From NCBI GenBank assembly GCA_029820295.1, contig JALGVA010000027.1, positions 1-47,404 of the forward strand: a stretch of 47,404 nucleotides of DNA, in the 5' to 3' direction. This DNA is from Candidatus Zipacnadia bacterium. GTDB lineage: Bacteria > Armatimonadota > Zipacnadia > Zipacnadales > UBA5352. The position numbers were made by a program, and so were the translations under genes. Positions within the stretch are counted from its first letter, which is position 1, and each line of letters starts with the position of its first letter. This document shows, piece by piece, positions 3,485-45,918 of this stretch. Below the pieces are notes generated by a model, which saw only the letters and a list, made by a program, of their open reading frames with translations, had not been told where the DNA came from and did not search any database.

Positions 3485-4759
3485 ATGGCGATGGAAGAGA
3501 TCCTGTCTGATGCCGCACTCGACGGACCGCTGCACGCGGCACTCACTCAGCTCGATGATGCCGCGAAGCTCATCGGGCTGGACGACGCGATTCATCACAA
3601 GCTGCGCAAGCCCAAGCGCGTGATGATGGTGTCGATCCCGACGGCGATGGACGACGGCAGCACGCAGGTATTCACCGGCTACCGCGCGCAGCATAGCATG
3701 GAGCGCGGTCCGTGCAAGGGCGGCATCCGCTATCACCCCGACGTGACCATCGAAGAGGTCATCGCGCTGGCGATGTGGATGACCTGGAAGTGTGCGGTGG
3801 TGAACATCCCCTACGGCGGCGCCAAGGGCGGCGTGGTGTGCAACCCCAAGGAGATGTCGGTGGGCGAACTGGAGCGCATGACCCGGCGCTTCACCACCGA
3901 GCTGGTCGAGGTCATCGGCCCCGAGAAGGACATCCCCGCGCCCGACGTCTACACCGACGCGCAGACCATGGCCTGGATCATGGATACGTACTCAATGCAG
4001 AAGGGCTACTCGGTGCCGGCGGTGGTGACCGGCAAGCCGATCGCGCTGGGCGGCTCGCTCGGGCGCGAGGCGGCCACCGGCCGCGGCTGCGTCTTCTGCA
4101 TCCGCGAGGCCATGCGACGCCTGGAGATCCCCATGGACGGCGCGAAGTTCGCCGTGCAGGGCTTCGGCAATGTGGGCGCGTGGGCCGCGCGGCTGCTCGA
4201 GCCGCTGGGCCCCAAGATGATGGCCGCCTCCGACTCGCGCGGCGGCGTCTACAATCCCGACGGCATCCCGGTCCTCGACCTGGTCAAACACAAGGAGGAG
4301 ACCGGCCGCGTCGGCGGCTTCCCGGGCGCGGATGACATCAGCAACGAGGAGCTGCTCGAACTCGAGTGCGACGTGCTGATCCCCGCCGCGCTCGAGAACG
4401 CCATCCATGAGGGCAACGCCGGTAACATCAAGGCTACGATGGTCGCTGAGGGCGCCAACGGGCCGACCACGCCCGACGCCCAGGACATACTCAACGACAA
4501 CGGCGTCTTCGTGATCCCCGACATCCTGGCCAACTCGGGCGGCGTGACCGTCTCTTACTTCGAGTGGGTCCAGGGCCTGCAGGCCTACTTCTGGACCGAG
4601 GACGAGGTGAACGAGCGCCTCGAGCGCATCATGGTGCGCGCCTTCGACGAGGTCTACGCCGAGTCGCAGAAGCGCAGCGTGGACATGCGCGCGGCGGCGA
4701 TGGCGGTTGCCGTCGGGCGCGTCGCCGAGGCACAGGCGATGCGCGGGATCTATCCGTAG
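3485..4759 (+). CDS. gdhA: glutamate dehydrogenase, first of two tandem copies
   Basis: This 424-residue cytoplasmic enzyme belongs to the Glu/Leu/Phe/Val dehydrogenase family and should interconvert glutamate and 2-oxoglutarate plus ammonia with NAD(P). The substrate-binding and catalytic motifs are intact: GPCKGGIRYHP (about 75-85), GGAKGG (about 110-115) with the catalytic lysine, and PAPDV (about 152-156) with the proton-relay aspartate. The dinucleotide motif is GFGNVG (about 226-231), and GGVTVSYFEW near the C-terminus is the form seen in glutamate rather than leucine enzymes. The ATG follows GAGGAGGGAC. A strong terminator-like hairpin (4782-4818) lies between this gene and its paralogue, so the two may be expressed at different levels. 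Confidence 0.93.
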   Translation: MAMEEILSDAALDGPLHAALTQLDDAAKLIGLDDAIHHKLRKPKRVMMVSIPTAMDDGSTQVFTGYRAQHSMERGPCKGGIRYHPDVTIEEVIALAMWMTWKCAVVNIPYGGAKGGVVCNPKEMSVGELERMTRRFTTELVEVIGPEKDIPAPDVYTDAQTMAWIMDTYSMQKGYSVPAVVTGKPIALGGSLGREAATGRGCVFCIREAMRRLEIPMDGAKFAVQGFGNVGAWAARLLEPLGPKMMAASDSRGGVYNPDGIPVLDLVKHKEETGRVGGFPGADDISNEELLELECDVLIPAALENAIHEGNAGNIKATMVAEGANGPTTPDAQDILNDNGVFVIPDILANSGGVTVSYFEWVQGLQAYFWTEDEVNERLERIMVRAFDEVYAESQKRSVDMRAAAMAVAVGRVAEAQAMRGIYP

Positions 4760-4864: not shown

Positions 4865-6130
4865 ATGGTGGCCGCGCACCTGACCTGCCCGACCAACGTG
4901 CTGGAGAGCGCCGTGCAGCAGCTCGATGATGCGGCCGCGATGATCGATCTCGATCCGGCCATCCACGCCAAGCTCCGCCGGCCCAGACGAGCACTGATCG
5001 TCTCGGTGCCCACGCACATGGACGATGGCCGCTTCGAGGTCTTCCTGGGCTACCGCGTGCAGCACAACATGGACCGCGGGCCCTGTAAGGGCGGTATCCG
5101 CTACCACCCGTGTGTCACCCTCGACGAGGTCACCGCGCTGGCCATGTGGATGACGTGGAAGTGCGCCGTAGTCAACATCCCCTACGGCGGCGGCAAGGGC
5201 GGCGTGATCTGCGACCCCGCATGCATGTCGATGGATGAGCTGGAGCGCCTTACGCGGCGCTTCACCGCCGAGCTGATCGAGGTGATCGGCCCCGAGGAGG
5301 ACATCCCCGCCCCCGACGTCAACACCAGCGATCGCATCATGGGCTGGCTGATGGACACCTACTCGATGCAGGTGGGCCACTCGGTGCCCGCGGTGGTCAC
5401 CGGCAAGCCCATCGCCATCGGCGGGTCGCTGGGGCGCGCGCAGGCCACCGGGCGCGGCATCGTCTTCGTGGCGCGCGAGGCGCTGCGCACCCGCGGCATG
5501 AGCGTGGCGGGCGCCACCGCCGCCGTCCAGGGCTTCGGCAAGGTCGGCGGGGCCTTCGCCGAGCTGTTCGCGGAGATGGGAGCGAAGGTCATCGCCGTCT
5601 CCGATGTCAGCGGCGGCGTCATCAACCAGGCCGGCCTCGACGTGGCGGCGCTGACGCGGCATGTCATTGACACCGGCCGCGTGGCTGGCTTCGCCGGCGG
5701 AGACGCCATCACCAACGACGAGCTGCTCGCGCTTGAGTGCGATGTGCTGGTGCCGGCGGCGCTGGAGAACGTGTTCACGGCCGACAACGCCGCGTCGGTG
5801 CGAGCGAAGATGATCGTGGAGGGTGCCAACGGCCCGACCACCCCCGAGGCGCACAGCATCTTCACCGAGCGCGACGTCTTCGTGGTGCCCGACATCCTCG
5901 CCAACGCCGGCGGGGTGACCGTCTCCTACTTCGAGTGGTGTCAGGGCCTGCAGCACCTGTTCTGGACCGAGGACGAGGTGAACCGCCGGCTGGAGAGCGT
6001 GATGGTCAACGCCTACAATGAGGTTTACGCGTGCGCCTGTGAGCGTAGAATAGACATGCGTAGCGCCGCCATGGCGGTCGCGGTCGGGCGCGTGGCCGAG
6101 GCCATCAGGCTGCGCGGCATCTACCCGTAG
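4865..6130 (+). CDS. glutamate dehydrogenase, second tandem copy
   Basis: The 421-residue product is a clear paralogue of the gene just upstream; long blocks are nearly identical, for example GEGANGPTTP-type and NAGGVTVSYFEW segments. The catalytic motifs GPCKGGIRYHP (about 74-84), GGGKGG (about 110-115) and PAPDV are all present, so it is not obviously dead. A difference is seen in the dinucleotide-binding loop, GFGKVG instead of GFGNVG. The start ATG follows GATGAGGAGACC. Tandem glutamate dehydrogenases are known in Thermus, where GdhA and GdhB form a hetero-hexamer with one regulatory subunit. Here both look catalytically competent, so differing cofactor use or allosteric control are also possible. 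Confidence 0.92.
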   Translation: MVAAHLTCPTNVLESAVQQLDDAAAMIDLDPAIHAKLRRPRRALIVSVPTHMDDGRFEVFLGYRVQHNMDRGPCKGGIRYHPCVTLDEVTALAMWMTWKCAVVNIPYGGGKGGVICDPACMSMDELERLTRRFTAELIEVIGPEEDIPAPDVNTSDRIMGWLMDTYSMQVGHSVPAVVTGKPIAIGGSLGRAQATGRGIVFVAREALRTRGMSVAGATAAVQGFGKVGGAFAELFAEMGAKVIAVSDVSGGVINQAGLDVAALTRHVIDTGRVAGFAGGDAITNDELLALECDVLVPAALENVFTADNAASVRAKMIVEGANGPTTPEAHSIFTERDVFVVPDILANAGGVTVSYFEWCQGLQHLFWTEDEVNRRLESVMVNAYNEVYACACERRIDMRSAAMAVAVGRVAEAIRLRGIYP

Positions 6131-7741: not shown

Positions 7742-8968
7742 CTACTGCGCGGCCAGGCGGCCCTTGAGCCAGGCGTAGATGGCGTCGCCGATCTGGTAGT
7801 AGCCTGCGGTCGCCGGGTGGACACCGTTGGTCATGCGTGAAATCTCAACGTCGGTGTACGCGTTGGCCGGGACCATCGCGCGCGGGAAGCCGTAGACGGT
7901 GTCCAGGTTCACGAACGCCGGCACCAGGAACAGGCCCTCCGCCTCGCGTCCACCATAGGTCTCGTACTCGCGCTCGACGACGCGATGCTGGTTGCGCCGG
8001 TACTGCCAGCGCGTCTGGGTGGTCGTGTAGTTCGCGCCGAAGGCGTCCTGGCTCGCCGCCGGCGGCACCAGCAGCAGCAGGCCGATCTCGGTGTGCGGCG
8101 CCGCCGCGCGGAAGGCCGCGAGCAGTTGGTCCGCGTAAGCGAAGGCCGCATCGATGCGCTCCTCGATGGTGCTCTCATCCGCCGAGAAGGTGTCGTTGCA
8201 GCCCAGCAGGATCGTGATGAAGTCCGGTGGCTGCCCGCCGTTGTTGGCGTCGAGGTAGCGCTGGAAGTCAAGCTGCGGCTCGCCGTTCACTTCGAAGAGG
8301 AACGGGCTGCGTCCCCGGCGCATGCGCCCGTTGACCTCGACCCGGTCCTGCCCGTCGGCCCAGTTCTCTACGAAGCGGCTGAAGGTCCAGCCGCCGTAGC
8401 CCTCGTGGCGGTTGCCGGTGTCGCCGCCCGGGCCGCTCTCGCCGATGAGCGTCGCGTTCACCGCCTCGTCTTCGGCGAACAGGGTCACCAGACGCGCGGT
8501 GTATCCCGAAGCGGCGGTCAGGCTGTCGCCCACGCACAGCAGCGTGATCTCGCGGCCCGCGCCCGCCGCCGGATCGATGACATGCACGGTCGAGGTCATC
8601 TCCAGCACCGGCTGCACCTCGGGCGTGACGATGCGCACCGTCAGCGGCCAGTCGCCCACCTGCTCGGGCGTGGGGACGGCGGTCCAGCGTTCTGTCTGCT
8701 GGCGGCCGATGGGGCAGTCCACGTCCCAGAGCATGTCTTCGGTGTCGGGCGCAAGCACGATGTTGTCGAAGTACACGTTCGCCTCGACGCCCGGGACGGC
8801 GTAGATCTCCGGCGGCATGATGGGGCGCAGGCCGGGCCTGTCCACCGCCGCGAGCCGCTCGACGGGCGGCAATCCCTCCCCTACGAGTGCGTCCTGGGCC
8901 TGGGTCCGGCAGCTTGCGAGACTCAACGCGCAGATGATCGGCAGGGCGATGGTCCGGTGTACGCGCAT
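7742..8968 (-). CDS. SGNH/GDSL hydrolase lipoprotein
   Basis: The 408-residue product begins with a lipoprotein signal ending in SLASC (Cys20), so it is probably surface anchored. After an N-terminal beta-rich region of about 140 residues comes the esterase domain: block I is CVGDSLTA with the nucleophile serine, block III is LLGCNDTF and block V is TNGVHPATAGY. In block V the position usually occupied by the catalytic aspartate (D-x-x-H) is Asn. The enzyme may still work with a Ser-His dyad. Relatives remove acetyl or other ester groups from polysaccharides. The ATG overlaps the stop of the sulfatase (TGATG), so the genes are translationally coupled; GTG at 8971 is an alternative start. Confidence 0.82.
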   Translation of the reverse strand: MRVHRTIALPIICALSLASCRTQAQDALVGEGLPPVERLAAVDRPGLRPIMPPEIYAVPGVEANVYFDNIVLAPDTEDMLWDVDCPIGRQQTERWTAVPTPEQVGDWPLTVRIVTPEVQPVLEMTSTVHVIDPAAGAGREITLLCVGDSLTAASGYTARLVTLFAEDEAVNATLIGESGPGGDTGNRHEGYGGWTFSRFVENWADGQDRVEVNGRMRRGRSPFLFEVNGEPQLDFQRYLDANNGGQPPDFITILLGCNDTFSADESTIEERIDAAFAYADQLLAAFRAAAPHTEIGLLLLVPPAASQDAFGANYTTTQTRWQYRRNQHRVVEREYETYGGREAEGLFLVPAFVNLDTVYGFPRAMVPANAYTDVEISRMTNGVHPATAGYYQIGDAIYAWLKGRLAAQ

Positions 8969-10446
8969 CACGGATACCTCCCCCAGGCGGGATGCCGCAC
9001 GTGCTCCGGCAGCTTGCCCAGGTAGGATGTGTAGGCCGGCTCCATTGAGTGCAGCAAGCGGTGCATGAGCACCTCGGTCAGCTCGCGGCGGACGCTCGCG
9101 TGGGCCGGGTCATCCCACAGATTGACGGTCTCGCCCGGGTCGTCCTGCAGGTCATACAGCTCGCCGATGGTGTCGGCACCCCAGTAGCCGAGCTTGTAGC
9201 GCCCGGTGGTCAGCAGCGCGCCGGCGCGCCCGCGGTTGTTGTCCACGTACTCGGTCAGGGCGTGGTCGCGCGCATGCTCGCCGCCCTCGAGTACCGGCCG
9301 CAGGCTGGGTGCGGCCATCTCCGGCGGCGCATCGATGCCCGCGTAATCAAGCGCAGTCGCAGCGACCGAGAAGGTCTCCGTGACGCCGTCGTAGCGGCCG
9401 GGGCGCGCGCCGCTCTGCCGGCGCTCGGGCAGGCTGACGATCAGCGGCAGGTGCACGACCTGCTCGAGGAACACGCCCTTGCCCCAGCGGCGCCAGTCGC
9501 CCAGCATCTCGCCATGATCGCTCGTGATCATGGTGATGGTGTCATCGGCGAAGCCGAGGCGCGCCAACTCCTCGTTGATGCGCCCGATCATGTCATCGAT
9601 CAGCGTCATCATCGCGTAGTAGTAGGCCACGCGCGTCTGCACCAGCCGCCGCTCCTCCGGCGTCGCCTGCTTCGCTGGCCGGTTCATGAACTCCGGGCGG
9701 CCCGCCAGCTCCATCTCCCAGGTCTCGGGGAAGGGCATCTCGTTCGGATCGTACATCTCGGCATAGCGGCGCGGCGGATCGAACGGTCCGTGCGGCCCGC
9801 AGAACCCCACCCACAGCATCCACGGCCGGTCGGCGCTCTGCGCGCGTAGGAACTCGATCGCCATGTCGGCGATCCACCAGTCGACGTACTCGTCCTCGTC
9901 GAGCACGTTGATGAGCGTGCCGTCATCGTAGTCGGCGGTCTGGCGCTGATCGTAGATCTCGCGGTAGCGCCCGGGACGCCGCTCTTCCAGCCAGCGCGCG
10001 TAGTCCTGCCCCAGCGGCGCGGCGCCCACCTTCTCGCCCCACTCCTTCCGCCAGCGCCCGCCCTTGCCGCCGGTGAGCTGCGTCCAGTCGTAGCCCTTGG
10101 GCTGCATCATGTGGATCTTGCCGCACGCGCCGGTGTAGTAGCCCGCGCCCTGCAGCCGCTCCATGAAGGTGGTCTCCCACGGCGGCAGGACCGGCGTGGT
10201 GTCGATCTCGCTCTCCATGTACTGCACGCCGTGCTGGTGCGTGTAGCGTCCGGTGTGCAGGCACGCGCGCGCGGGAATGCACACGGTGTTCTGCGTGTAG
10301 CAGCGGGTGAACAGCGTGCCACCCTCGGCCATGGCGTCCATGTTCGGCGTCCGGCAGATGTCGTTACCGGTCACGCCCAGCGTGTCGTAGCGCTGCTGGT
10401 CGGTGGTCACGACGATGATGTTGGGGCGCCCGCAGCGATCGGGCAT
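8968..10446 (-). CDS. sulfatase (formylglycine type)
   Basis: The 492-residue protein is a type I sulfatase or close AlkP-fold hydrolase. Near the start it shows the metal-binding strand NIIVVTTDQQR with Asp16. The sulfatase signature CIPAR at residues 56-60 (C-x-P-x-R, followed by ACLHTGRYTHQHG) marks Cys56 for conversion to formylglycine. Further on, TSDHGEMLGDW (about residue 305) supplies the second metal-binding Asp-His pair. No signal peptide is visible, so it may act in the cytoplasm. A formylglycine-generating enzyme is not in the window. It starts five bases after the metallophosphoesterase stop and overlaps the SGNH gene, suggesting joint processing of a substituted glycan. Confidence 0.9.
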   Translation of the reverse strand: MPDRCGRPNIIVVTTDQQRYDTLGVTGNDICRTPNMDAMAEGGTLFTRCYTQNTVCIPARACLHTGRYTHQHGVQYMESEIDTTPVLPPWETTFMERLQGAGYYTGACGKIHMMQPKGYDWTQLTGGKGGRWRKEWGEKVGAAPLGQDYARWLEERRPGRYREIYDQRQTADYDDGTLINVLDEDEYVDWWIADMAIEFLRAQSADRPWMLWVGFCGPHGPFDPPRRYAEMYDPNEMPFPETWEMELAGRPEFMNRPAKQATPEERRLVQTRVAYYYAMMTLIDDMIGRINEELARLGFADDTITMITSDHGEMLGDWRRWGKGVFLEQVVHLPLIVSLPERRQSGARPGRYDGVTETFSVAATALDYAGIDAPPEMAAPSLRPVLEGGEHARDHALTEYVDNNRGRAGALLTTGRYKLGYWGADTIGELYDLQDDPGETVNLWDDPAHASVRRELTEVLMHRLLHSMEPAYTSYLGKLPEHVRHPAWGRYP

Positions 10447-10450
10447 GATC

Positions 10451-12433
10451 TCATCTCCCTGGCCGATGGCTGGACTGGCGGCTGAGCGGGACCTCGCCGG
10501 TCAGATCGCCGGGGCCGGTCGAGATCATCCACGACTGGGCTTTCTCGGGCACAAACGCCTCGCGGATCATGCCGCGGTTGCCCACCTGTCTGAGTTCCCA
10601 CTCCATGTGGTCGTCGTAGACACGGAAGACGCGGTAGGCATTGGGCCATTCGGCGAACGCCGGGTTCTGCACGTGCCTGATACCCGCCAGCGAGTTGACC
10701 TGGTTCCAGTGGCTGTGGCCGCTCAGGGTCGCGATCACGTTCGGGGCTTCCTCCAGCATCTCGAGGACGTCCGCGGAGCTGGCGCACGTGCTCGCACGCA
10801 TTCGGTGGCCGCAGGAGCTGTCGCCGGGACGGTCGTAGAAGCCGTAGTGCCACACGACCACCGTCGGCGTGCTGGTATCGGCGGCCAGGGTGTCGCGCAG
10901 CCACTGCATCTGCTCCGGCCTGAGCCCGATTTTGACCGAGCTTCCGGCATCGTAGTGATCTGTGCTCTCCCCGTCCCCGGTGCGCCACCAGGAGGCGTCC
11001 ATCACGATGAAGCGCAGCGGGTCGCGCGCAAGCACGTAGTCGAAAGAGCCCCCGGGGAACAGCTCGGGTGCCAGTTCGAGCAGGTCTGCCCTCGACGACG
11101 ACAGGTAGGAGTCATGGTTGCCGACGCAGCCGTAGACCGGCAGCTCGGTGGCGTCGAGCACGCCTGCGAGCAGCTCGAACTCAGAGCGTGTGGCGCGGTT
11201 CACCATGTCGCCCGCCAGCAGCGCGAAGTCGACCCCTTCGGCGCGCAGCGACTCCAGCTCCGCCGGCAGCGTCGCGGCCGCGCCCTCATGCATGATCACG
11301 TTCATCCACGCGCCACGCCCCGGCGACAGGTGAGTGTCCGCGATGACAGCGAAGGACAGCACCGGCGCTCGCACCGCACGTCCCGTCGGCCGCAGGCGCA
11401 GTTCCAGGAACTCGCCCGCCGGCCGGAAGTGTGGTCCGGCAACGGTCAGGTAGTGCCTCCCCTCGGGCAGCAGCCACTCGGCCAGCTCGACGCGCTCCGG
11501 CGGCGGCTCGCCCTGGATGTCCGGGACGGCATCGCGGACGGGGAGCGGCCCCCAGCTCGGCGCGACCACCATGGGCGCGCCGACCAGGGTCGAGTCGCTG
11601 AGAACGTACGCACGCAGTCCCGGTCGCAGATCCTCGTCCGGTCTGAGGGCGACGCTCCCGGTCAGGTACAGCGGCTCAGGCACGTCGACCGCGAAGCTCA
11701 GCAGCCCGTCTGCGCGTATGTGCACGCCGGGAGTATCCGGCAGGACGACTTCCGGCCGTGCCAGATCGGCGGCCAGAGCACCGTCCGTGCCATCCACGCG
11801 AAGCTCTCGCCCGGGCTCGATGGTGACCGCGCGAGCATCCGCCTGGCTGCGCAGCAACGCCTGCAGGCGCGGATAGACCTCGATCGGTGGGTCGGGCACA
11901 ACCGTCGCGACCAGACGAACGTCATCGAACCAGCTCGGTGCACCGGCGACCATGGCCAGCATCACGTCGCGGTCGGTCTCGCGCCACTCCTCGGCCCGCA
12001 GCGTCCCCGTCAGTTGCACCCACTCACCGGCCCGGCCTCCGGTGACGGTCGCCTTGGTGTAGCGCCGCTCGCCGTCGCTGGCGGAGATGTACAACTGGAC
12101 GCCGCCATCGATCCCGGCGTAAACCCAGGCGGAGAACTCGCAGTCTCTCTCACGGTCCAGCAGCGCGTCCAGCCGGAAGTAGGCGCCACCACTGTCGCCG
12201 TCGGGAGTCACGAGCAGCGAGCGCGCGCCGGAATGAGCATGCGCGTCGTCTCCGGCATAAGCGGCCTGGTAGGTGTGCAGGTCGGGGATCTCCCGCTCGA
12301 AGCCCTCCTCGAGCATCACGACGTCCTCTTCCTGCGCCAGTGCCGGGGAAGCCGGCCGGCACAGCGCAAGCACTGCGCCGAAACACAGCACGGCGCCGCA
12401 CCGAAGCACCTGTACAAGGCCATCCTGGATCAT
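10451..12433 (-). CDS. secreted metallophosphoesterase
   Basis: The 660-residue product has a signal peptide (residues 1 to about 36, ending PALAQ). The first 340 residues are beta-rich, including a carbohydrate-binding-like jelly roll (EEGFERE then SGARSLLV). The calcineurin-like phosphoesterase domain follows with all motifs in order: D-x-H in VIADTHLS (about 363), GD in LLAGDMV (about 406), GNHD (about 435), WHYGF (about 529) and GHSH (about 570). It should use two metal ions to cleave phosphate esters outside the cell. AAGGACC and the spacing of one base to the upstream stop (TGAGATG) fix the start; an open frame extends further upstream but overlaps the radical SAM gene. Confidence 0.87.
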   Translation of the reverse strand: MIQDGLVQVLRCGAVLCFGAVLALCRPASPALAQEEDVVMLEEGFEREIPDLHTYQAAYAGDDAHAHSGARSLLVTPDGDSGGAYFRLDALLDRERDCEFSAWVYAGIDGGVQLYISASDGERRYTKATVTGGRAGEWVQLTGTLRAEEWRETDRDVMLAMVAGAPSWFDDVRLVATVVPDPPIEVYPRLQALLRSQADARAVTIEPGRELRVDGTDGALAADLARPEVVLPDTPGVHIRADGLLSFAVDVPEPLYLTGSVALRPDEDLRPGLRAYVLSDSTLVGAPMVVAPSWGPLPVRDAVPDIQGEPPPERVELAEWLLPEGRHYLTVAGPHFRPAGEFLELRLRPTGRAVRAPVLSFAVIADTHLSPGRGAWMNVIMHEGAAATLPAELESLRAEGVDFALLAGDMVNRATRSEFELLAGVLDATELPVYGCVGNHDSYLSSSRADLLELAPELFPGGSFDYVLARDPLRFIVMDASWWRTGDGESTDHYDAGSSVKIGLRPEQMQWLRDTLAADTSTPTVVVWHYGFYDRPGDSSCGHRMRASTCASSADVLEMLEEAPNVIATLSGHSHWNQVNSLAGIRHVQNPAFAEWPNAYRVFRVYDDHMEWELRQVGNRGMIREAFVPEKAQSWMISTGPGDLTGEVPLSRQSSHRPGR

Positions 12434-12434
12434 C

Positions 12435-13778
12435 TCACTGGTCCTTCGCCGAGCCATCACCGCCGGGCTCTTCTTCCAGCCGCCTGTAGGTCGAGTGTGG
12501 ACACTCTTTTGAGAGTGCCAGCCTGCGGCCCGGCAGCGACACCGAGCTGCAGCCGCATACGTAGTACTCCGGCCGCTGGCCCAGCGTCTCCGCCATCTCG
12601 GCCCACATCTCACGCGACTCGGTGCTGATGTAGAGCGGCACTTCCGTGTCCCAGCGCCGCACCTGAGCGGCCAGGTAGCGGTAGATCTCCGCGCGCACCT
12701 CGTGCGGGAAGGGCCCGGTGATCACGCCCTCCATCTCCTCGGCCGCGTCGCGGGCCGCGCCCACGAACTCCTCGTCCAGCAGATCGAGACTGAACTTCGC
12801 CGCCAGCGACTCGACGGTGTTCCACATGATCACGCAGAAGCCGATCGACTCGGGCGTCGTCAGCCGGCACATGGCCTCGATGGCCTCCGCGTACTCCTCG
12901 CGCCAGTTCTTGACCGGGATCATCGGCTTGAACTTGAAGCGCACCGGGATGCCCATCGCCTGGCACTTCGCGGCGGCCTCGACGCGCTCGACGGCGCTGC
13001 CCGTGCCCGGCTCGATGTCGCGTGCCACCGCCTCACAGGTGGCGCTCCACACGCCGATGAGGCGGTCTTTGCACTCCAGGTCGGCCATCCACTCCACATT
13101 CGGGGAGGTGGAGTGGAAGTAGCCCCAGCGGTCATGGGCCGCCAGCGTACGCGTGTAGAGGTCGATGCAGCCATACTCGGGCTCGAAGGCGATGTGATCC
13201 GCTCCCCAGCCGATCATGCGGAAGCACTTCTGCCACTGGTTCTCGGCGATCACGCGTGGGACGACGTTCTCCATGAACTCCTCGAGGTTCACGCCGATGG
13301 CGACCCACGGTCCGGACTTGCCGGTGCCGCAGTACTGGCAGCCGTGCGGGCAGCCGGACATCGTGCCGAAGTCGTTGGTGGGCCAGCAGACGTAGTTCTT
13401 CTGCCAGTCATCCTCACGCTCGTGGTACTTGCGCACCGGGTCGATCCAGCCGAGCAGGTCGCATACGTGACTCGCATTGGTCCCCTCGGGCAGGCCGGCC
13501 AGCAGGTCCTCGGCCTCGGGACGCTCGCCATCGAGCTGGAGCATGGTGAAGACCAGTGGACGCGTGTACGGGCCGCGCTCGGGGTCGAGCACCGCCTCGG
13601 GCGACCACACCTGGTACGCATGGGACATCACCGACGCGAGGTCGTCCGCGGAGTACTCGATGACGTCCGCGCGCGGAAAGCCGATGGCGCCCAGCATGCG
13701 CTCCATGCGTCGCACGGCGCGTTCATCGCGTGTGACCTCGTCGAACATGTAGACGGCCGCGGGTCGCAGTGCGTACAT
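12435..13778 (-). CDS. radical SAM protein resembling spore photoproduct lyase
   Basis: The 447-residue cytoplasmic protein has a radical SAM CX3CX2C motif, GCPHGCQYCG, with Cys143, Cys147 and Cys150 to bind a 4Fe-4S cluster. The segment from about 240 to 300 (IGVWSATCEAVARD, IEPGTGSAVERVEAAAK, GIPVRFKFKPMIPVKNW) follows the spore photoproduct lyase pattern of S-N-x-x-x-V-x-x-x-E-P-G-T and a later P-I/M-I-x-x-x-x-W. In SPL a cysteine in the F-E-A-A-C-T-S-D-P segment donates hydrogen; here the comparable stretch FRMIGWGADH (187-196) has no cysteine. A Cys-rich end (YVCGCSS, KECPHS) is present. It is not an anaerobic sulfatase-maturing enzyme by its motifs. Reaction unknown. Confidence 0.75.
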   Translation of the reverse strand: MYALRPAAVYMFDEVTRDERAVRRMERMLGAIGFPRADVIEYSADDLASVMSHAYQVWSPEAVLDPERGPYTRPLVFTMLQLDGERPEAEDLLAGLPEGTNASHVCDLLGWIDPVRKYHEREDDWQKNYVCWPTNDFGTMSGCPHGCQYCGTGKSGPWVAIGVNLEEFMENVVPRVIAENQWQKCFRMIGWGADHIAFEPEYGCIDLYTRTLAAHDRWGYFHSTSPNVEWMADLECKDRLIGVWSATCEAVARDIEPGTGSAVERVEAAAKCQAMGIPVRFKFKPMIPVKNWREEYAEAIEAMCRLTTPESIGFCVIMWNTVESLAAKFSLDLLDEEFVGAARDAAEEMEGVITGPFPHEVRAEIYRYLAAQVRRWDTEVPLYISTESREMWAEMAETLGQRPEYYVCGCSSVSLPGRRLALSKECPHSTYRRLEEEPGGDGSAKDQ

Positions 13779-13858: not shown

Positions 13859-14794
13859 CTATCGGCGCAGGGACCGGATCTGCTCCGCCAGGCGATGGCT
13901 GGCAAGGGCGTCGCGCGCGGGCACGTGCGGCTGCCCGTCGCCGCGCACGCAGGCGAAGAAGTGGTCGAGCTGCGCCGCGAATCCCCAGCGCTGGGGCTCG
14001 GGCATCTGCCAGCGGTCCTGGTCCGGGCACCACGCCACCCGCTGCCCGTCGGCGATGGTCTCGACCGCGTGCGGGGCGTCGATGATCGCCGTGCGTCCAC
14101 CACCGTGCAGGACCATGCGCTCGATCCAGCGCCCGGCGGCACGCGACATGATGTAGCTGCCCAGCGCCCCGCCCACAAAGCGCATCGACACCGACGCGCC
14201 CAGGTCGATCTCGCCCTCGGACACGCACCAGCCCCTGACCTCGGCCACCTCGCCGCACAGCCAGCGCACCGCGTCCAGCAGGTGGAGGGAGTTCGTGATC
14301 GGCTCGCGGTAGATCCCACCCGAGCCGCTCTTCTCCGCCGCGCACATCTCGATGGTGTGGCCGGCGAAGTGTTCGTACGCACGGCGGTAGACCGGGGCGA
14401 AGCGGCGGTTCACGCTCATCATCAGCAGCGTGCCGGACGCCTCGGCCGTCGCCACCATCTCCTGCGCGCGCGCGAAATCCGCCGACAGCGGCTTCTCGCA
14501 CAGCGTGGGCACGCCCGCGCGCATCAGGGCCAGCACCGGCTCGTAGTGCGCGTCAATGCTCTCGCGCACCGGCGTGAGCACCAGTGCGCAGTCGCAGGCG
14601 TCGGCGTCGATCTCGTCGGCGGAGGCCAGATGTGTGGCGTTCGGGAAGCGCGCGCACATGCGCTCGCGCACGGTCTCGGAGGCGTCCACGCACGCGCAGA
14701 CGGTCGCGCCGTCGTGCACATCCAGCAGCGGCAGGTAGATGTCGCGCGCGATGCCGCCGCAGCCGATCACGGCGACGCGCAGTGGGTCGGTCAT
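13859..14794 (-). CDS. Gfo/Idh/MocA-family oxidoreductase
   Basis: The 311-residue protein has the Rossmann motif VAVIGCGGIARD (about 7-18) and an intact EKP motif (CEKPLS, about 101-106), followed by the alpha/beta substrate domain containing NRRFAPVYRRA and EPITNSLHLLD. These enzymes oxidise or reduce a sugar or cyclitol with NAD(P). It directly follows a DegT-type aminotransferase. Pairs of Gfo/Idh dehydrogenase and DegT aminotransferase are typical of amino-sugar or amino-cyclitol synthesis, where the dehydrogenase makes a ketone and the transaminase converts it to an amine. The ATG at 14794 follows GGGGAGACC; an in-frame ATG 30 bases further upstream lacks such a site. Confidence 0.87.
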   Translation of the reverse strand: MTDPLRVAVIGCGGIARDIYLPLLDVHDGATVCACVDASETVRERMCARFPNATHLASADEIDADACDCALVLTPVRESIDAHYEPVLALMRAGVPTLCEKPLSADFARAQEMVATAEASGTLLMMSVNRRFAPVYRRAYEHFAGHTIEMCAAEKSGSGGIYREPITNSLHLLDAVRWLCGEVAEVRGWCVSEGEIDLGASVSMRFVGGALGSYIMSRAAGRWIERMVLHGGGRTAIIDAPHAVETIADGQRVAWCPDQDRWQMPEPQRWGFAAQLDHFFACVRGDGQPHVPARDALASHRLAEQIRSLRR

Positions 14795-14874: not shown

Positions 14875-16116
14875 TCAGCGCAACTCATCCACGTTGTCGC
14901 GGATCTTCTGGATCGCCTCGAGCATCAGGTCCATGTCGTCGGTGCCGCCGAGGAAGAGCCTGTGCGTGAGACTGACGCCCTCCTCCTTGTGGATGCGCTC
15001 GCACTCGGGCGTGGGCATGCCGGCGTAGTCGGGCGGCTCGTTATCGCCGAAGCAGGCGGGCCCCCAGTTGCGCTCGGTGAACAGCGGATTGTGCTGGATC
15101 GGGTGCAGGTGGCCGAGGCCGCAGCTCAGGCCCTCGGCGTTGAGCGCCTCCATGAAGCGGTCGCGGGTGATGCCGCCGAACGCCTCGGAGTGGAACTTGA
15201 AGTGATAGAAGTAGAAGTTCCAGCGTGTGACCCACGGGTCGCGCTCGATGGGGGAGACGCCCTCGATCGCGCGCAGGCCGTCCTCAAGGTAGCGGGCGTT
15301 GGCATCGCGGGTCTCGGCCTGCTCCGCGAGGCGCGACAGGCCGCCGAGCAGCACCGCGGCCTGCCACTCGGTCATGCGCAGGTTGCTGGCGACGAGGTGG
15401 TGTTCGTAGAACGGCCGGCCCTCGAAGCGGCCGATGTGGTGGAAGCTGTAGAGCATCGCGGCGAGGTCCTCGTCGTTGGTGAGGCAGATGCCGCCCTCGC
15501 CCGCGGTGAGGGTCTTGCCCATCTGCAGCGAGAAGCAGCCGATGTCGCCCAGCGAGCCGCAGCCGCGGCCATTCCAGGTGGAGCCGTGCGCGTGCGCGGA
15601 GTCCTCGATGATCCACAGCCCGTGGCGGTCGGCGATGGCGCGCAGTGCGTCCATGTCCGCGGGATAGCCGCCGTAGTGCACGGGCATGATGCCGACGGTG
15701 CGCTCGCCGATGGCGGCCTCGACCGCCGCGGGCGAGATCTGGTAGTTGCCGGGGTCGATGTCCACGACGATGGGGATGGCGTTCACCAGGATGCAGGCGG
15801 TGGCGGAGGCGACGAAGGTGGCGGCGGGGACGATCACCTCGTCGCCGGGCCGGATGCCGATGGCCTTGAGCGCGCACTCGATGGCCTGCGTGCCGTTGGT
15901 GATGGCCACGCCGAATTGCGCGTCCTGGAACGCCGCGAACTGCTCCTCGAACTGGGTGACCTTCGAGGTGTCCGACGGGCCGCTGCCGCGCCACCATCGG
16001 CCGGACTCGAGCACCTGCATGAGGTTCTCGCGCTCGATGTCACCGAAGATGGGCCAGTCCTTGCCGAGTTGCCGGTCGATGACCTTGGGGCCGCCGTTGA
16101 TCGCCAGCTTGGCCAC
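14875..16116 (-). CDS. DegT/DnrJ/EryC1/StrS aminotransferase
   Basis: The 413-residue protein is a pyridoxal-phosphate aminotransferase of the sugar aminotransferase family. Recognisable motifs are the substrate loop ITNGTQAIECALKAIGI, the strand GDEVIVPAATFVASA, the cofactor-binding EDSAHAHG (about 172-179) and the Schiff-base lysine in GKTLTAGEGG (about 200). These enzymes transfer an amino group from glutamate or glutamine to a keto-sugar or keto-cyclitol. The true start is GTG at 16116, preceded by GGAGGCATTACC; the frame runs further upstream but only into low-complexity sequence. It is followed by Gfo/Idh, radical SAM, phosphoesterase, sulfatase and esterase genes on the same strand. 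Confidence 0.9.
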   Translation of the reverse strand: MAKLAINGGPKVIDRQLGKDWPIFGDIERENLMQVLESGRWWRGSGPSDTSKVTQFEEQFAAFQDAQFGVAITNGTQAIECALKAIGIRPGDEVIVPAATFVASATACILVNAIPIVVDIDPGNYQISPAAVEAAIGERTVGIMPVHYGGYPADMDALRAIADRHGLWIIEDSAHAHGSTWNGRGCGSLGDIGCFSLQMGKTLTAGEGGICLTNDEDLAAMLYSFHHIGRFEGRPFYEHHLVASNLRMTEWQAAVLLGGLSRLAEQAETRDANARYLEDGLRAIEGVSPIERDPWVTRWNFYFYHFKFHSEAFGGITRDRFMEALNAEGLSCGLGHLHPIQHNPLFTERNWGPACFGDNEPPDYAGMPTPECERIHKEEGVSLTHRLFLGGTDDMDLMLEAIQKIRDNVDELR

Positions 16117-16904: not shown

Positions 16905-18101
16905 ATGGACGACACACAGGTCGGCGGCCTGTTCACCCGCAGGCACCAGCAAGCGCGGGCGGTGACAAAGGGCCCGGGCTACCACTGGTTCGGCTACTAC
17001 GACAAGTGTCCGTGGAGCGCCGATGGGGCGCTGATGCTGGCCATGGAGATCGACTTCATGGACCGCATTCCCACGGGCGAGGAGAGCATCCGCGTAGGTA
17101 TCGTCGATCTGGAGGGCGGCGGAGAGTTCCACGCGCTCGACGAGACGCGCGCGTGGTGCTGGCAGCAGGGGACGATGCTGCAGTGGCTCGGGACCGATCC
17201 GAACCGGCTGATCATCTACAACTCGATTGAGGACGGGCGGTACGTCTCGATCATCCGCGACATCCACTCCGGGGAAACGCGCACGATCCCGCGGCCGGTC
17301 TACGCGGTCAGCCCGGACGGCACGCAGGCGGTGAGCCTGAACTTCGCGCGCACCGGGCGCTGCCGGCCCGGCTACGGCTACCGCGCGCTGCCCGACCCGA
17401 CGCAGGGCGTGATGCACCCGGACGATGATGGCATCTGGCACGTGGACCTGCAGACGGGCGAGACGACGCTGATCGTGACCATCGACCAGATCGTGCAGAT
17501 CGCGTACCGCCGCAGCCTGGAGAACGAGAGCTGGTTCAACCACATGCAGTTCTGCACCGACGGCAGCCGCTTCCTGTGGCTGCACCGGTGGTACAAGCAC
17601 GGCAGCGAGCGCTGGTTCACGCGCCTGTTCACCGCGAACCCCGACGGCTCGGACATCTACCTCGTGGCCGATGACGACATGATCTCGCACTTCGACTGGC
17701 GCGACCGGCGCCACATCCTGGCCTGGGCGACGCACCACCAGGTGGGCAACAAGTACTACCTGTTCCGCGATCAGAGCCCGTGGTTCGAGACCGTCGGCGA
17801 ACACGTCTTCACCTGCGACGGGCACTGCTCGTACTCGCCCGACCCGCACCGCCGCTACATCCTGACCGACACCTACCCGGACGCGCAGTCCAAGCGCTGG
17901 CTGATCCTCTACGACACGCAGACCGGGCAGCGCGCGGACATCGGCCGCTTCCTCTCGCCGCGGCGCTACTCCGGCGAGATCCGCTGCGACCTGCACCCGC
18001 GCTGGAACCGCGACGGCACGCAAGTGTGCTTCGACTCGCTGCACGAGGGCGAGCGGCAGCTCTACATCATCGACATCAGCGACATCGTTGAGTTCTCGTA
18101 G
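16905..18101 (+). CDS. cytoplasmic TolB-like beta-propeller protein
   Basis: The 398-residue protein lacks a signal peptide and consists of repeated beta-propeller blades: PDGTQAVSLNF, DGSRFLWLH, NPDGSDIYLV, DPHRRYILTDTYP and NRDGTQVCFDS are blade motifs like those of TolB and oligogalacturonide lyase. The N-terminal KGPGYHWFGYYDKCPW and the HMQFCTDG and CSYSPDPHRR blocks recall the lyase-like propellers, where conserved His residues bind metal. I cannot assign a reaction. GGAGG at 16888-16892 supports ATG 16905. It is nine bases upstream of the amidotransferase gene, so the two are one transcription unit. Confidence 0.75.
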   Translation: MDDTQVGGLFTRRHQQARAVTKGPGYHWFGYYDKCPWSADGALMLAMEIDFMDRIPTGEESIRVGIVDLEGGGEFHALDETRAWCWQQGTMLQWLGTDPNRLIIYNSIEDGRYVSIIRDIHSGETRTIPRPVYAVSPDGTQAVSLNFARTGRCRPGYGYRALPDPTQGVMHPDDDGIWHVDLQTGETTLIVTIDQIVQIAYRRSLENESWFNHMQFCTDGSRFLWLHRWYKHGSERWFTRLFTANPDGSDIYLVADDDMISHFDWRDRRHILAWATHHQVGNKYYLFRDQSPWFETVGEHVFTCDGHCSYSPDPHRRYILTDTYPDAQSKRWLILYDTQTGQRADIGRFLSPRRYSGEIRCDLHPRWNRDGTQVCFDSLHEGERQLYIIDISDIVEFS

Positions 18102-18110
18102 GAGGCGCCC

Positions 18111-18776
18111 GTGATCTGCTACGTCGTCACCGAGACGCGCGCGAAGTACGACGAGATGGACTGCCACGCGATCAAGCACGATCTCGAGCGGCTCAGCGGC
18201 GACCTGTGCCTGGTGATGCACTACGCGCAGGTCAAGCGCGCCTTCATCAACGAGGTGCGCCCCTGGGCGCTGTGCCACTCGGGCGGGGCCACGCCGCACA
18301 ATGAGTACGACGTGCTCGAGCGCGAGGACTACCGCTGGCTGATCTGCGAGTCGGGCATCCCGCAGATCGGCTTTTGCGGCGGGCATCAGCTCATCGCCGA
18401 GATGTTTGGCGGCGAGGTGGCGCCGATGCGCCCGCTGGCGCGCGACGAGGCCGACCTCGCCCCACAGTACCACCAGGGCGCCTTCAAGGAGTGGGGGGTC
18501 TGGCCGGTGCGCATCGTCGAGGACCACGCGCTCTTTGCCGGGCTGGAGAGTCCACTGCGGGTGTGGGAGATGCACCGCAGCGAGATCAAGAGGCTGCCGG
18601 ACGAGTTCCGCGTGCTGGCCTCCAGTGGCGACTGCCGCGTGCAGGCGATGGCGCACCGGGAGCTGCCGCTGTTCGGCACGCAGTTCCACCCGGAGAAGCG
18701 CCAGGAGGGCTACTCGGACGGCCACGCGCTGGTGGCGAACTTCTTCGCCATCGCCCGCGAGGTGGCGGGGCGCTGA
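18111..18776 (+). CDS. class I glutamine amidotransferase-like protein
   Basis: The 221-residue protein shows the triad of class I glutamine amidotransferases: nucleophile Cys89 in GFCGGHQ and the His193/Glu195 pair in TQFHPEK. Such domains release ammonia from glutamine for a partner enzyme, or hydrolyse gamma-glutamyl bonds as in the PuuD-type enzymes. Stand-alone copies of this size fit either role. No synthetase domain is adjacent, so a hydrolase of a gamma-glutamyl compound is a reasonable alternative. The start is GTG, with AGGAGG seven bases upstream. It lies between the propeller gene and the MttB-like methyltransferase, 56 bases before the latter. Confidence 0.85.
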   Translation: MICYVVTETRAKYDEMDCHAIKHDLERLSGDLCLVMHYAQVKRAFINEVRPWALCHSGGATPHNEYDVLEREDYRWLICESGIPQIGFCGGHQLIAEMFGGEVAPMRPLARDEADLAPQYHQGAFKEWGVWPVRIVEDHALFAGLESPLRVWEMHRSEIKRLPDEFRVLASSGDCRVQAMAHRELPLFGTQFHPEKRQEGYSDGHALVANFFAIAREVAGR

Positions 18777-18832: not shown

Positions 18833-20233
18833 ATGCGGTTCCTCGAGGACCATGAGCTGGAGCGCATCAATGCGCGCAGTCTTGACCTGCTGGAGCAGGT
18901 GGGGGTGCGCATCGATCATGAGGAGATCACGCGCAGGCTGCTGGCGGCGGGCTGTCGCGAGCTGCCCTCGGGCATGATCGCCTTCCCGCGCGAGCTGGTT
19001 GCCGAGTGCGTGGCACTGGCGCCGTCGACGGTGCAGCTTGCCGGCGTCGGCGGCGAGATCATGGAGATCGGCCCGGGCGGCGCCACCGTGTTCTGGACGG
19101 GCAACGCGATCAACATCGTTGAGGGGCGCGAGTGCCGACCCATCCGCGAGCCCGACTTCATCGCGCTCACGCGCCTGGCCGATGCGCTCGATCGCGTCCA
19201 CGCTGCGGTCGGGCCGAACCTGAGCGAGATCCCGGCGCAGTTCCGCGACTTCGTGGCCTGCCGGCTGCTGGCCCAGCACACGAGCAAGCACCTGCGCCCG
19301 TGCATATACACGCCGCGCGGCGGGCGGGCGATCTGCGAGATGGGGGAGGTGCTGGCGGCCCCGCACAGCCTGCGCGAACGGCCGGTGGTGAGCTTCGGGT
19401 ACACCATCGTCAGCCCGCTGCACTGGACCGAGCCGGGGCTGGAGATGTTCGCGCAGACCTCGGGCTTCGGCGTGCCCATGATGATCAACGCCGAGCCCAC
19501 CGCGGGCGCGACCTCGCCGGTGACGCTCGGGGGCACGCTCATGCTCGCCAACGCCGAGGCGCTCTCGGGCGTGGTGATCGTGCAGACCCTCGAGCCCGGG
19601 CGCCCGTGCGTATTCAACCTCGGCTTCGCGCACGCGATGGACATGCGCGAGGGCATTACGCGCACCGGCGCGCCCGAGAACGGGCTGATGGGGGCGGCCG
19701 GCGCGGAGCTGGCGCGACTCCACGGCCTGCCCGGCGCCTCCTGGATGAGCACCGAGTCCATGGTCGCCGACGAGCAGGCGGCCTACGAGAAGATGACCGT
19801 TGGGCTGATGCACGCGCTGGCGGGAGTCAACATCATCTGGGGGGTCGGCCAGCTCGAGTCGCAGCGGACGCTCTGTCCGGAGATGATGGTGATCGACGAC
19901 GAGATCGCCGCAGTGGCGCTGCGTGCGGCGCGCGGCGTACCGGTCGATGACGAATCGCTGGCCTACGAGGCGGTCGCGGAGATGGGCGCGGAGCCGGACT
20001 ACCTCGCCCACCCGCACACGCTGGCGCGCTTCCGCGAGGAGGTCTTCCTGCCGGCGCTGGGCTTCGTCGGCCGGCGCGAGCGCTGGCAGGACGCCGGCGC
20101 GCCGACCACCGTCGAGAGGGCACGCGAGCGAGTGCGTGCCATCCTCGCCGAGCCCGAGCCGCCGCGCCTTGAGGCCGACGTCGAGCGCGAGTTGATGGCG
20201 ATCGAGACGCGCTGGTGCGAGGAGCTGGCGTAA
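18833..20233 (+). CDS. MttB-family (trimethylamine methyltransferase-like) protein
   Basis: The 466-residue protein belongs to the MttB superfamily, whose members move a methyl group from a quaternary or tertiary amine to a cobalamin-binding protein. The family block NAEPTAGATSPVTLGGTLM (from about residue 218) and the later MGAAGAELARLHGLP are present. The reading frame is complete without an in-frame amber codon, so it is a non-pyrrolysine homologue such as the glycine betaine enzyme MtgB, or one of the many uncharacterised relatives. No corrinoid protein or reductive activase lies nearby, although the family normally needs them. It is the last gene of a three-gene unit with a propeller protein and an amidotransferase. 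Confidence 0.85.
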   Translation: MRFLEDHELERINARSLDLLEQVGVRIDHEEITRRLLAAGCRELPSGMIAFPRELVAECVALAPSTVQLAGVGGEIMEIGPGGATVFWTGNAINIVEGRECRPIREPDFIALTRLADALDRVHAAVGPNLSEIPAQFRDFVACRLLAQHTSKHLRPCIYTPRGGRAICEMGEVLAAPHSLRERPVVSFGYTIVSPLHWTEPGLEMFAQTSGFGVPMMINAEPTAGATSPVTLGGTLMLANAEALSGVVIVQTLEPGRPCVFNLGFAHAMDMREGITRTGAPENGLMGAAGAELARLHGLPGASWMSTESMVADEQAAYEKMTVGLMHALAGVNIIWGVGQLESQRTLCPEMMVIDDEIAAVALRAARGVPVDDESLAYEAVAEMGAEPDYLAHPHTLARFREEVFLPALGFVGRRERWQDAGAPTTVERARERVRAILAEPEPPRLEADVERELMAIETRWCEELA

Positions 20234-43683: not shown

Positions 43684-43839
43684 TGCGCGGAAGAAGGTGC
43701 GCGCAAACTTCGGCGGCGAGGAGGGGAGGTATGTGGTATCGATGAAGCTAACATGCCATTGGCCTGGCAGATGCGGGTCTTGAGCAGCATCGCCCGCGGG
43801 ATGGAGGAAGAGACCGTCACGGGAAAAGGTGGGAGCACG

Positions 43840-45918
43840 ATGCGGATATTGCGGATATTCCTCTCATACCACTTCGAACGGGCTGACGAGCTGTTCGCGC
43901 AGCGGCTAAACTACTACCTGCGCTCACAGCCCAAGATCGAGACGTTCTTCTGGCCGGAACAGGTGTGCGTCGATGACTGGCAGAAGCGACTTTGTGACGG
44001 GATTACACAGACCGATGCGATGGTTTTCGTACTCGGGCGAAGTCTGGGCGATACACAGGTGGCTGAAGCGAAGGCGGCCGCAGACGCGGTGGAGAAGCGG
44101 CTCCCGTACCCCTTCGTTCTTGTCCGCTGGAGTGGGAGGGACATGAGCAGCGCTGTTCCCGAGACCATGCCCCGGGGGACAGAGGTGTTCGTGGCCGGGG
44201 ACTGGGCGGAGGAGGACGCGGACCTCGATCGACTCGCGCACTCTGCCGCAATGGGGGTAGTGAGCCGTCTTTCACTTGACTGGTCCGATCCCTACGAGAT
44301 CCCGATAGGCTACCCGTTCGACTATGAGAAGGACATCATCGATGACTACGTGAGCGGAGAGGGAGCGGCGTCGCGCGAGAAGCGGGTGCACGGAGCGCCC
44401 CCCAGATGGCCGTCCTTGGAGAGGGTGGGCGAGACGATGTCGCAGGAACCCAATGCCGACGACCTGCAGCGGGAGGTCGGTCGGTACCGCGCGGACAATG
44501 AGCGGATCGCTGTGGACGCGCGCCTGAGCTATCTGAAGGAGACCGCGGATGACGAATGCCGTGGTGGCGGTGTGGTGAGATGCGGTCTTGACTTCGCTGA
44601 GGCAGGGCCGCGGCAGTTCCACGTGTACCCCAGAGGCGGACAGGGCAGTGTGGATGTTGGGATCATAGTCTCAGGCGGAATCGCGCCAGGCATCAACGCC
44701 GTGATCAGAGGCATACTGGAACGGCACCAGCTCTATGCGCGCAGGAACAACTACGCGCTCAATGTTTCGGGATGTGTGGGCGGGCTGCAGGAACTCCTCT
44801 CCGACGGGTCCTCGTTCAGGTGTCTCTTCACTCGACGCGCCAACGGCGAGGAACCACCAGTCCTCGGCCTCAGTCCACAGGTGTTGGATGATAGCGCGCT
44901 CGCCGGAGGCAGCATTCTGCCTACGTCGCGGGCTGACGACCTGTTGGACGTGGCGACAAGACAGGAGCGCGTGCAGCAGATCGTTGCGGCGCTCTCTGCA
45001 GCGGGCATGAACATTGTCTACGTCATCGGGGGAGACGGCAGCATGAGAGCGGCGCACTGCATCTGGCGAGAGGCACAGCAACAGGGCCGCGACATTTCAG
45101 TCGTGGCGGTACCCAAGACAACGGACAACGACATCCTGTGGGTCTGGCAATCATTCGGCTTCCTGTCCGGCGTGGAGAAGGCGAGGGAGGAGATTCTGAA
45201 TCTCCACACAGAGGCCCGCTCGAACCCCAGACTGGGCGTGATCCAGCTTTTCGGTTCGGACTCGGGGTATGTGGTGAGCCACGCTGCTCTCGCGAGCGGC
45301 GTCTGTGACCTTGCGTTGATCCCAGAAGTCCCATTCTCCATGGAGCGCGTCTGCGCGTACATCAGGCAGGTACTGGATAGTCGGTACAGCAATGTCCCCG
45401 GCGATCACACACTTCCCTGGGGAATCGTTGTGATGGCCGAAACCGCGATACCTGAGGACGTCCAGAAGTACGTTGATCAGGAGTACGTGGGGTTGACGTC
45501 CGACGAGAAGGACGCAATCAGTAGGTTCGTGGAAGGCGGCAGGCGCGTGCAAGGGCAGACACCTGATGAGCTTAGGTCCGGAGGGCTCAAAGTAGTATCA
45601 CGCGTGCTGGAGCATGAGATCCAGAACGGGGGCGGGGACTTTTGGCCGCGGTTCCGCATCTTCACCAATGAGCCGCGACACCTGCTGCGTTCGATTGCTC
45701 CAAGCCTTCAGGACTTGATCTTCGGTCAGCGGCTTGGCATGCTCGCTGTAGACAACGCACTAGCCGGGTATACGGACTTCATGATCTCCCAGTGGCTCAC
45801 CGAGTACGTACTCGTGCCCTTGCGATTGGTCATCCTCGGCCGCAAGCGCGTCCCTCCCGAAGGTATCTTCTGGAAGTCGGTGCTCGCCGCCACGGGACAG
45901 CCCGCGGACCTGACCTGA
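43840..45918 (+). CDS. TIR domain-phosphofructokinase fusion protein
   Basis: The 692-residue protein joins two domains. Residues 1 to about 140 look like a TIR domain: RIFLSYHFERADELF (FLSY 7-10), DDWQKRLCDGITQTDAMVFVL and a helix with Glu76 that could be the NADase glutamate. After a charged linker (about 170-265), residues 270-690 match plant-type ATP-phosphofructokinase: VSGGIAPGINAVIRG (277-291), GGSILPTSR, GGDGS (397-401), PKTTDNDI (425-432, catalytic Asp429), IPEVPF (494-499), the arginine of HLLRS (617) and ALAGYT (640-645). The fructose-6-phosphate motif MGR reads FGS (471-473), so sugar binding may be altered or lost. ATG 43840 follows GGTGGGAG. Codon use differs from neighbours, suggesting transfer. 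A sensor-effector role, perhaps in defence, is inference. Confidence 0.82.
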   Translation: MRILRIFLSYHFERADELFAQRLNYYLRSQPKIETFFWPEQVCVDDWQKRLCDGITQTDAMVFVLGRSLGDTQVAEAKAAADAVEKRLPYPFVLVRWSGRDMSSAVPETMPRGTEVFVAGDWAEEDADLDRLAHSAAMGVVSRLSLDWSDPYEIPIGYPFDYEKDIIDDYVSGEGAASREKRVHGAPPRWPSLERVGETMSQEPNADDLQREVGRYRADNERIAVDARLSYLKETADDECRGGGVVRCGLDFAEAGPRQFHVYPRGGQGSVDVGIIVSGGIAPGINAVIRGILERHQLYARRNNYALNVSGCVGGLQELLSDGSSFRCLFTRRANGEEPPVLGLSPQVLDDSALAGGSILPTSRADDLLDVATRQERVQQIVAALSAAGMNIVYVIGGDGSMRAAHCIWREAQQQGRDISVVAVPKTTDNDILWVWQSFGFLSGVEKAREEILNLHTEARSNPRLGVIQLFGSDSGYVVSHAALASGVCDLALIPEVPFSMERVCAYIRQVLDSRYSNVPGDHTLPWGIVVMAETAIPEDVQKYVDQEYVGLTSDEKDAISRFVEGGRRVQGQTPDELRSGGLKVVSRVLEHEIQNGGGDFWPRFRIFTNEPRHLLRSIAPSLQDLIFGQRLGMLAVDNALAGYTDFMISQWLTEYVLVPLRLVILGRKRVPPEGIFWKSVLAATGQPADLT

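Follow-up and report, generated by a model that had tools for sequence, protein, structure and literature searches.

A multicopy clade in the spore photoproduct lyase branch of radical SAM enzymes, without the Bacillus-type hydrogen-return relay and with three additional invariant cysteines

The window (the whole 47,404-nucleotide stretch of Candidatus Zipacnadia bacterium DNA that we analyzed) encodes a radical SAM protein that, as judged from alignments and profile searches, is a relative of spore photoproduct lyase (SPL) and not SPL itself. It belongs to a multicopy and so far undescribed clade within the SPL branch of the radical SAM superfamily. Because it is without the Cys and Tyr of the SPL relay and three other Cys (C131, C408 and C410) do not vary in the family, a different radical reaction on a small molecule is probable. 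Our leading reading, which we hold tentatively, is that these three Cys ligate an auxiliary Fe-S cluster for a reaction whose substrate resembles a sugar or cyclitol.

Results

Relationship to spore photoproduct lyase

12435..13778, (-) strand: radical SAM enzyme of the SPL superfamily (447 aa, ATG start; open reading frame list and profile matches)
13329..13352, (-) strand: radical SAM cluster motif CX3CX2C, CPHGCQYC (C143, C147, C150), invariant in all family members

The motif and residue coordinates of the window protein were confirmed codon by codon. An initial annotation of this DNA had described the reading frame as SPL-like in layout, quoting the CX3CX2C motif, EPGTGSAVERVEAAAK and FRMIGWGADH; all of these are present as quoted, and the layout was supported by profile matches. 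As a single sequence, the window protein matched Pfam PF20903 (SPL) over residues 141-304 with E = 3.7e-9, above the gathering score, and TIGR04070 (SPL equivalog) with E = 2e-11, although at 43.4 bits against a cut-off of 400. A phmmer comparison with solved SPL gave E = 0.012, a family profile of 35 relatives gave E = 1.2e-20, and profile-profile alignment of the family with SPL (hhalign) covered residues 134-383 with E = 2e-27. The six best Foldseek matches to a predicted model, built from four sequences with a mean pLDDT of 65, were all SPL structures (top E = 3.8e-11). Taken together, these matches place the resemblance to SPL far above chance.

No other characterized family claimed the protein, as every match in the NCBIfam scan fell far under its cut-off; TIGR03942, the anSME model, was absent from these matches. 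Neither the Pfam nor the NCBIfam scan gave a SPASM/twitch match, and a whole-length match to DUF1848 was not reached (21.7 bits against a cut-off of 30.5, over 30 residues).

Distribution of the family

We searched for the family in 291 genomes of the phylum and obtained matches in 38, the weakest of which may be SPLs or other relatives because genomes with true SPLs (G016 and G017) also appear among them. Ten genomes had 3-6 matches each in the profile search, a few belonging to the SPL-like group that we call CNC, and the window's genome holds two further family copies on other contigs. Named relatives came from Candidatus Zipacnadia, candidate division WS1 and Armatimonadetes genomes, and a scan of genome contigs for close relatives retrieved three Armatimonadota/WS1 loci. 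In a tree of 82 sequences (a quick search with no bootstrap, in which two long CNC branches meet), the 68 family members formed one clade (SH-aLRT 99) with the CNC group as its sister; true SPL (SH-aLRT 95) and TIGR03886 (SH-aLRT 100) fell on the other side.

A plasmid search returned ordinary SPL-family matches only, none spanning most of the query, and a viral scan with the family profile returned only distant phage proteins resembling PA0069/Rv2578c. Among the papers searched, none described an SPL-like group with an auxiliary cluster.

Hydrogen-return relay

13197..13223, (-) strand: FRMIGWGAD, aligned with SPL FEASCTSD/FEASCYTD in several alignments; no donor Cys
13224..13226, (-) strand: C185, directly before F186; Cys in 23/68 family members

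SPL is known chiefly as a DNA repair enzyme that returns the radical to SAM via a Cys and a Tyr. The roles of Cys141 and Tyr99 in this relay have been described (PMC5368176; PMC3742179). In the clan alignment, the donor column (Bs Cys141, Gt Cys140) holds Cys in 1/68 family members versus 7/7 true SPLs; the family has mostly D, W, N or V there, and all five CNC members have Lys. The sole family member with Cys in this column, L039 (FNSCLTD), is an isolated case. In the window protein, the column of Bs C141 falls on W191 (MAFFT) or G190 (hhalign), neither alignment places a Cys there, and the nearest Cys lies more than three columns away. C185 is 5-6 residues off the donor column and is kept mainly in the window's own subclade, with T, V or L otherwise.

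The relay Tyr99 (Bs), which follows the third cluster Cys, is found in 0/68 family members; the counterpart of Tyr97 (Bs), between the second and third cluster Cys, is present in 68/68 (Y149 in the window protein). By sequence, the window protein is without both residues of the Bacillus-type hydrogen-return relay, Cys141 and then Tyr99. The initial annotation had described the enzyme as being without the hydrogen-donor Cys, and this stands for the Bacillus-type C141 column. The statement is safe for that position only, because some SPLs are known to use a Cys elsewhere as the donor (S76C in the Geobacillus mutant, C74 in Clostridium SPL). The proposal in the same annotation that C248 is a substitute donor did not survive comparison, as only 14 of 23 close relatives have Cys there and the other 47 have mostly S, T, G or A.

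These losses bear on whether the protein could be a DNA-repair variant of SPL with spore photoproduct or some other thymine lesion as its substrate. SPL models are the best curated matches, yet the donor Cys, Tyr99 and the basic C-terminal segment of SPL, which contacts DNA (RRYKWGRYGIGKYIY in Bacillus), are missing in the alignment, and several diverged paralogues occur per genome. The non-sporulation context noted earlier also held up, with SASP in 0/11 and Spo0A above cut-off in 0/11 of the genomes searched, and no full-length SPL was found in the window's genome. We regard a repair function as extremely improbable. The suggestion of an SPL-related chemistry other than DNA repair is, with no donor Cys and in this context, probably correct.

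Invariant cysteines outside the cluster motif

13386..13388, (-) strand: C131, invariant, 12 residues ahead of the first cluster Cys (68/68 family, 5/5 CNC, 0/9 SPL)
12549..12557, (-) strand: C408-G-C410, invariant CxC (68/68 family, 5/5 CNC, 0/9 SPL)
12438..12629, (-) strand: C-terminal extension past the SPL end (true SPLs stop at the aligned position)
12618..12620, (-) strand: E387, invariant, in the C-terminal extension (68/68 family, 5/5 CNC)
12603..12605, (-) strand: W392, invariant, in the C-terminal extension (68/68 family, 5/5 CNC)
13176..13184, (-) strand: E199-P200-E201, invariant motif specific to the family (68/68)

Six Cys are invariant in the family: the C143/C147/C150 triad, C131, C408 and C410. 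The "Cys-rich C-terminus" of the initial annotation is therefore correct for C408 and C410, but C426 is not conserved; C131, the loss of the relay Tyr, the family-wide scale and the alternative donor position had been overlooked. Lack of conservation led us to drop C248, C272, C426 and C185 as candidates for a function common to the whole family. The predicted model is silent on whether C131, C408 and C410 lie close together, since both the cluster loop (residues 114-155) and the C-terminus (402-447) have pLDDT below 50.

Because the trio consists of only three Cys, it could bind Zn or consist of free thiols in place of holding an Fe-S cluster. On the Zn reading, the three Cys would bind Zn (or another mononuclear metal) in a structural role, and the enzyme would carry out ordinary radical SAM catalysis without a further redox site. 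A trio of invariant Cys that includes a CxC suits Zn as well as Fe-S; however, the invariant residues listed for the family include neither a fourth Cys outside the cluster motif nor a His, and a Cys at -12 recurs in radical SAM groups of no close kinship. We consider a Zn site improbable.

The main rival to an auxiliary cluster is a thiol role, in which C131 would donate a hydrogen atom to a substrate radical from the position used in Clostridium SPL and the C-terminal CxC tail would re-reduce it. Redox-active tails re-reduce thiols in this way in ribonucleotide reductase, and the CNC proteins mostly stop almost straight after the CxC. Two alignments (phmmer and hmmsearch) place C131 opposite residue 76 (position 103 of the chain) in 4rh0, a Geobacillus SPL mutant whose PDB title gives C140A/S76C; the alternative donor site may therefore be close to C131. 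In Clostridium acetobutylicum SPL the conserved Cys is C74, on the opposite side of the pocket (PMC5368176), and a rewired H-atom pathway of SPL is the subject of a 2014 paper as cited there. However, the match between C131 and residue 76 spans a two-residue gap (C131 at -12, S76 at -14) and was aided by the engineered Cys, alignments with natural SPL begin at 134-135 or place Pro opposite C131, and the equivalence of Clostridium C74 with Gt S76 is itself presumed. The relay Tyr is also absent from the family. A thiol role is unlikely in our view, although it leads the alternatives.

Gene neighborhood

14875..16116, (-) strand: DegT/DnrJ/EryC1 aminotransferase, upstream (Pfam PF01041, E = 7e-94); conserved neighbor within the bacterial family
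13859..14794, (-) strand: Gfo/Idh/MocA oxidoreductase (nearest NCBIfam model inositol 2-dehydrogenase, below cut-off)
10451..12433, (-) strand: calcineurin-like phosphoesterase with a weak carbohydrate-binding-module match (Pfam)
8968..10446, (-) strand: sulfatase, Cys type (CIPAR at residue 56; Pfam and sequence)
7742..8968, (-) strand: GDSL/SGNH hydrolase (Pfam), conserved in the operon

The aminotransferase, dehydrogenase, phosphoesterase and sulfatase named earlier as neighbors were recovered as DegT, Gfo/Idh, calcineurin-like and Cys-type proteins by Pfam, and the phosphoesterase start lies 1 base from the radical SAM stop codon. Several genera of the window's bacterial family retain parts of one gene order, with gaps: DegT, Gfo/Idh, (cupin), radical SAM, (phosphoesterase), sulfatase, GDSL. 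The cupin gene is missing in the window. Outside this bacterial family the neighbors of the radical SAM gene differ, so the proposed substrate class derives from one subclade. The window's genome contains 104 Gfo/Idh genes; for this reason a Gfo/Idh neighbor carries little weight by itself, and we set it aside as proof of substrate. In one paralogue subclade, which includes the contig C94 copy of the window's genome, the gene adjoins an alpha-L-fucosidase-type gene. Overall, the gene neighborhoods point to carbohydrate metabolism and name no particular substrate.

At five paralogue loci, spread over three subclades, a QueG-like 4Fe-4S protein is encoded 1-3 genes upstream on the same strand. 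The QueG-like name was assigned by reading, Pfam giving a weak 4Fe-4S dicluster match only, and such proteins have 6-12 matches per genome. Perhaps this protein is an electron donor.

Sulfatase-cluster genes at 14 loci, the nearby Cys-type sulfatase (CIPAR) and the lack of an FGE match in the window's genome would suit an alternative sulfatase maturase that forms formylglycine in the neighboring sulfatase. However, the window's genome encodes a standard anSME (414 bits, above cut-off), which makes such a role needless, and most paralogue loci have no sulfatase; we dropped this candidate function, which is very improbable. Among 16 genomes searched, 14 had an FGE-type match, and the window's genome (G000) and its congener, both drafts, had none.

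Peptides or proteins are the substrates of many radical SAM enzymes that carry auxiliary clusters, and pseudopilin-like genes lie near some family loci, so RiPP-like or other protein maturation was also considered. Set against this are the lack of a SPASM/twitch match and of a conserved small-peptide gene adjoining the family loci (among called genes of at least 80 aa). We judge modification of a peptide or protein to be quite improbable, slightly more so than a Zn site.

Several other genes in the window were also recorded. A 398-aa protein with no Pfam match (16905-18101, (+) strand) lies beside a class-I glutamine amidotransferase-like gene (18102-18776), and the pair is kept divergent from the operon in several relatives. 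An MttB-type trimethylamine methyltransferase relative (18833-20233, (+) strand) scored 303 versus 525 bits, below the pyrrolysine-MttB cut-off, and has no internal stop. An unusual fusion at 43771-45918, (+) strand, joins an N-terminal TIR_2 domain (E = 3e-7) to a phosphofructokinase domain (E = 5e-42), and 3485-4759 and 4865-6130, (+) strand, are adjoining Glu/Leu dehydrogenase-like paralogues by reading alone.

Discussion

Proposed mechanism

Under our preferred reading of an auxiliary Fe-S cluster, the [4Fe-4S] cluster predicted from the CX3CX2C motif would cleave SAM to a 5'-deoxyadenosyl radical, which would take a hydrogen atom from the substrate. C131, in the loop before strand 1, would meet C408 and C410 of the C-terminal extension, and together they may coordinate a second [4Fe-4S] cluster that leaves one site free. 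This cluster could then accept an electron from the substrate radical or anchor the substrate. From the operon, the substrate might be a polar sugar, amino sugar or cyclitol shared with the DegT aminotransferase and the Gfo/Idh dehydrogenase, with the sulfatase, phosphoesterase and GDSL hydrolase possibly acting alongside in its handling. The fuller picture, in which an SPL-type barrel without the relay carries a substrate-facing second Fe-S cluster (Cys at -12 plus C-terminal CxC) that is independent of SPASM/twitch domains and serves sugar-type chemistry, is possible but doubtful as a whole.

A large clade that has kept the SPL core, lost the relay and gained three Cys offers a natural experiment on which SPL elements determine the reaction, and it may represent another route to an auxiliary cluster. 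Annotation errors are also likely here: family genes pass the Pfam SPL cut-off and may be labelled DNA repair enzymes.

Comparison with known systems

The family shares with SPL (TIGR04070, PF20903; PDB 4FHC, 4RH0) the radical SAM core, N164, the D194 column, E256, R265, W292 and the Tyr97 column. In contrast to SPL, it is without Cys141, Tyr99 and the basic C-terminal segment, and it alone of the two has C131 and the C-terminal CxC with E387 and W392. TIGR03886 (SPL family protein) has the superfamily core and likewise no Cys in the donor column (2 sequences), but it lacks the Cys at -12 and the CxC and forms a separate branch of the tree. The CNC group (L105-L107, L109, L113) is closer, sharing the Cys at -12, E387, W392 and the CxC (profile E = 3e-45), although it keeps a Tyr after the third cluster Cys, has Lys in the donor column and mostly ends almost directly after the CxC.

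A Cys at -12 is also found farther away. In DUF1848 (PF08902; L124 and L125) the printed sequence reads CGC-x11-CX3CX2C, a spacing that puts a Cys at -12, but the cluster motif is near the protein C-terminus and the similarity covers about 30 residues, below cut-off. In L124 and L125 the CX3CX2C follows all other parts of the protein, an arrangement suggestive of circular permutation of the radical SAM fold; a literature search found nothing on DUF1848. In the phage radical SAM group related to PA0069/Rv2578c (L117, L119, L126-L144), hhalign aligned a Cys at -12 with C131 (L117, L126-L144), and a downstream E and an invariant CC are also shared; these proteins are nonetheless distant, about 340 aa long, with another C-terminus and an additional N-terminal CxC. 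The phage-contig proteins L126-L147 are 68-100% alike and have the N-terminal CxC, the Cys at -12 and the downstream CC. Recurrence of this Cys in DUF1848 and the phage group fits ligands for a second metal site common to these proteins, and we infer that it would mark such a site near strand 1.

In MoaA and SPASM/twitch enzymes, a second cluster is held by three Cys and has a free site for substrate. The window protein differs from these in matching no SPASM/twitch model and in placing its cysteines elsewhere, but the proposed working principle, three Cys holding a second cluster with a free site, would be the same.
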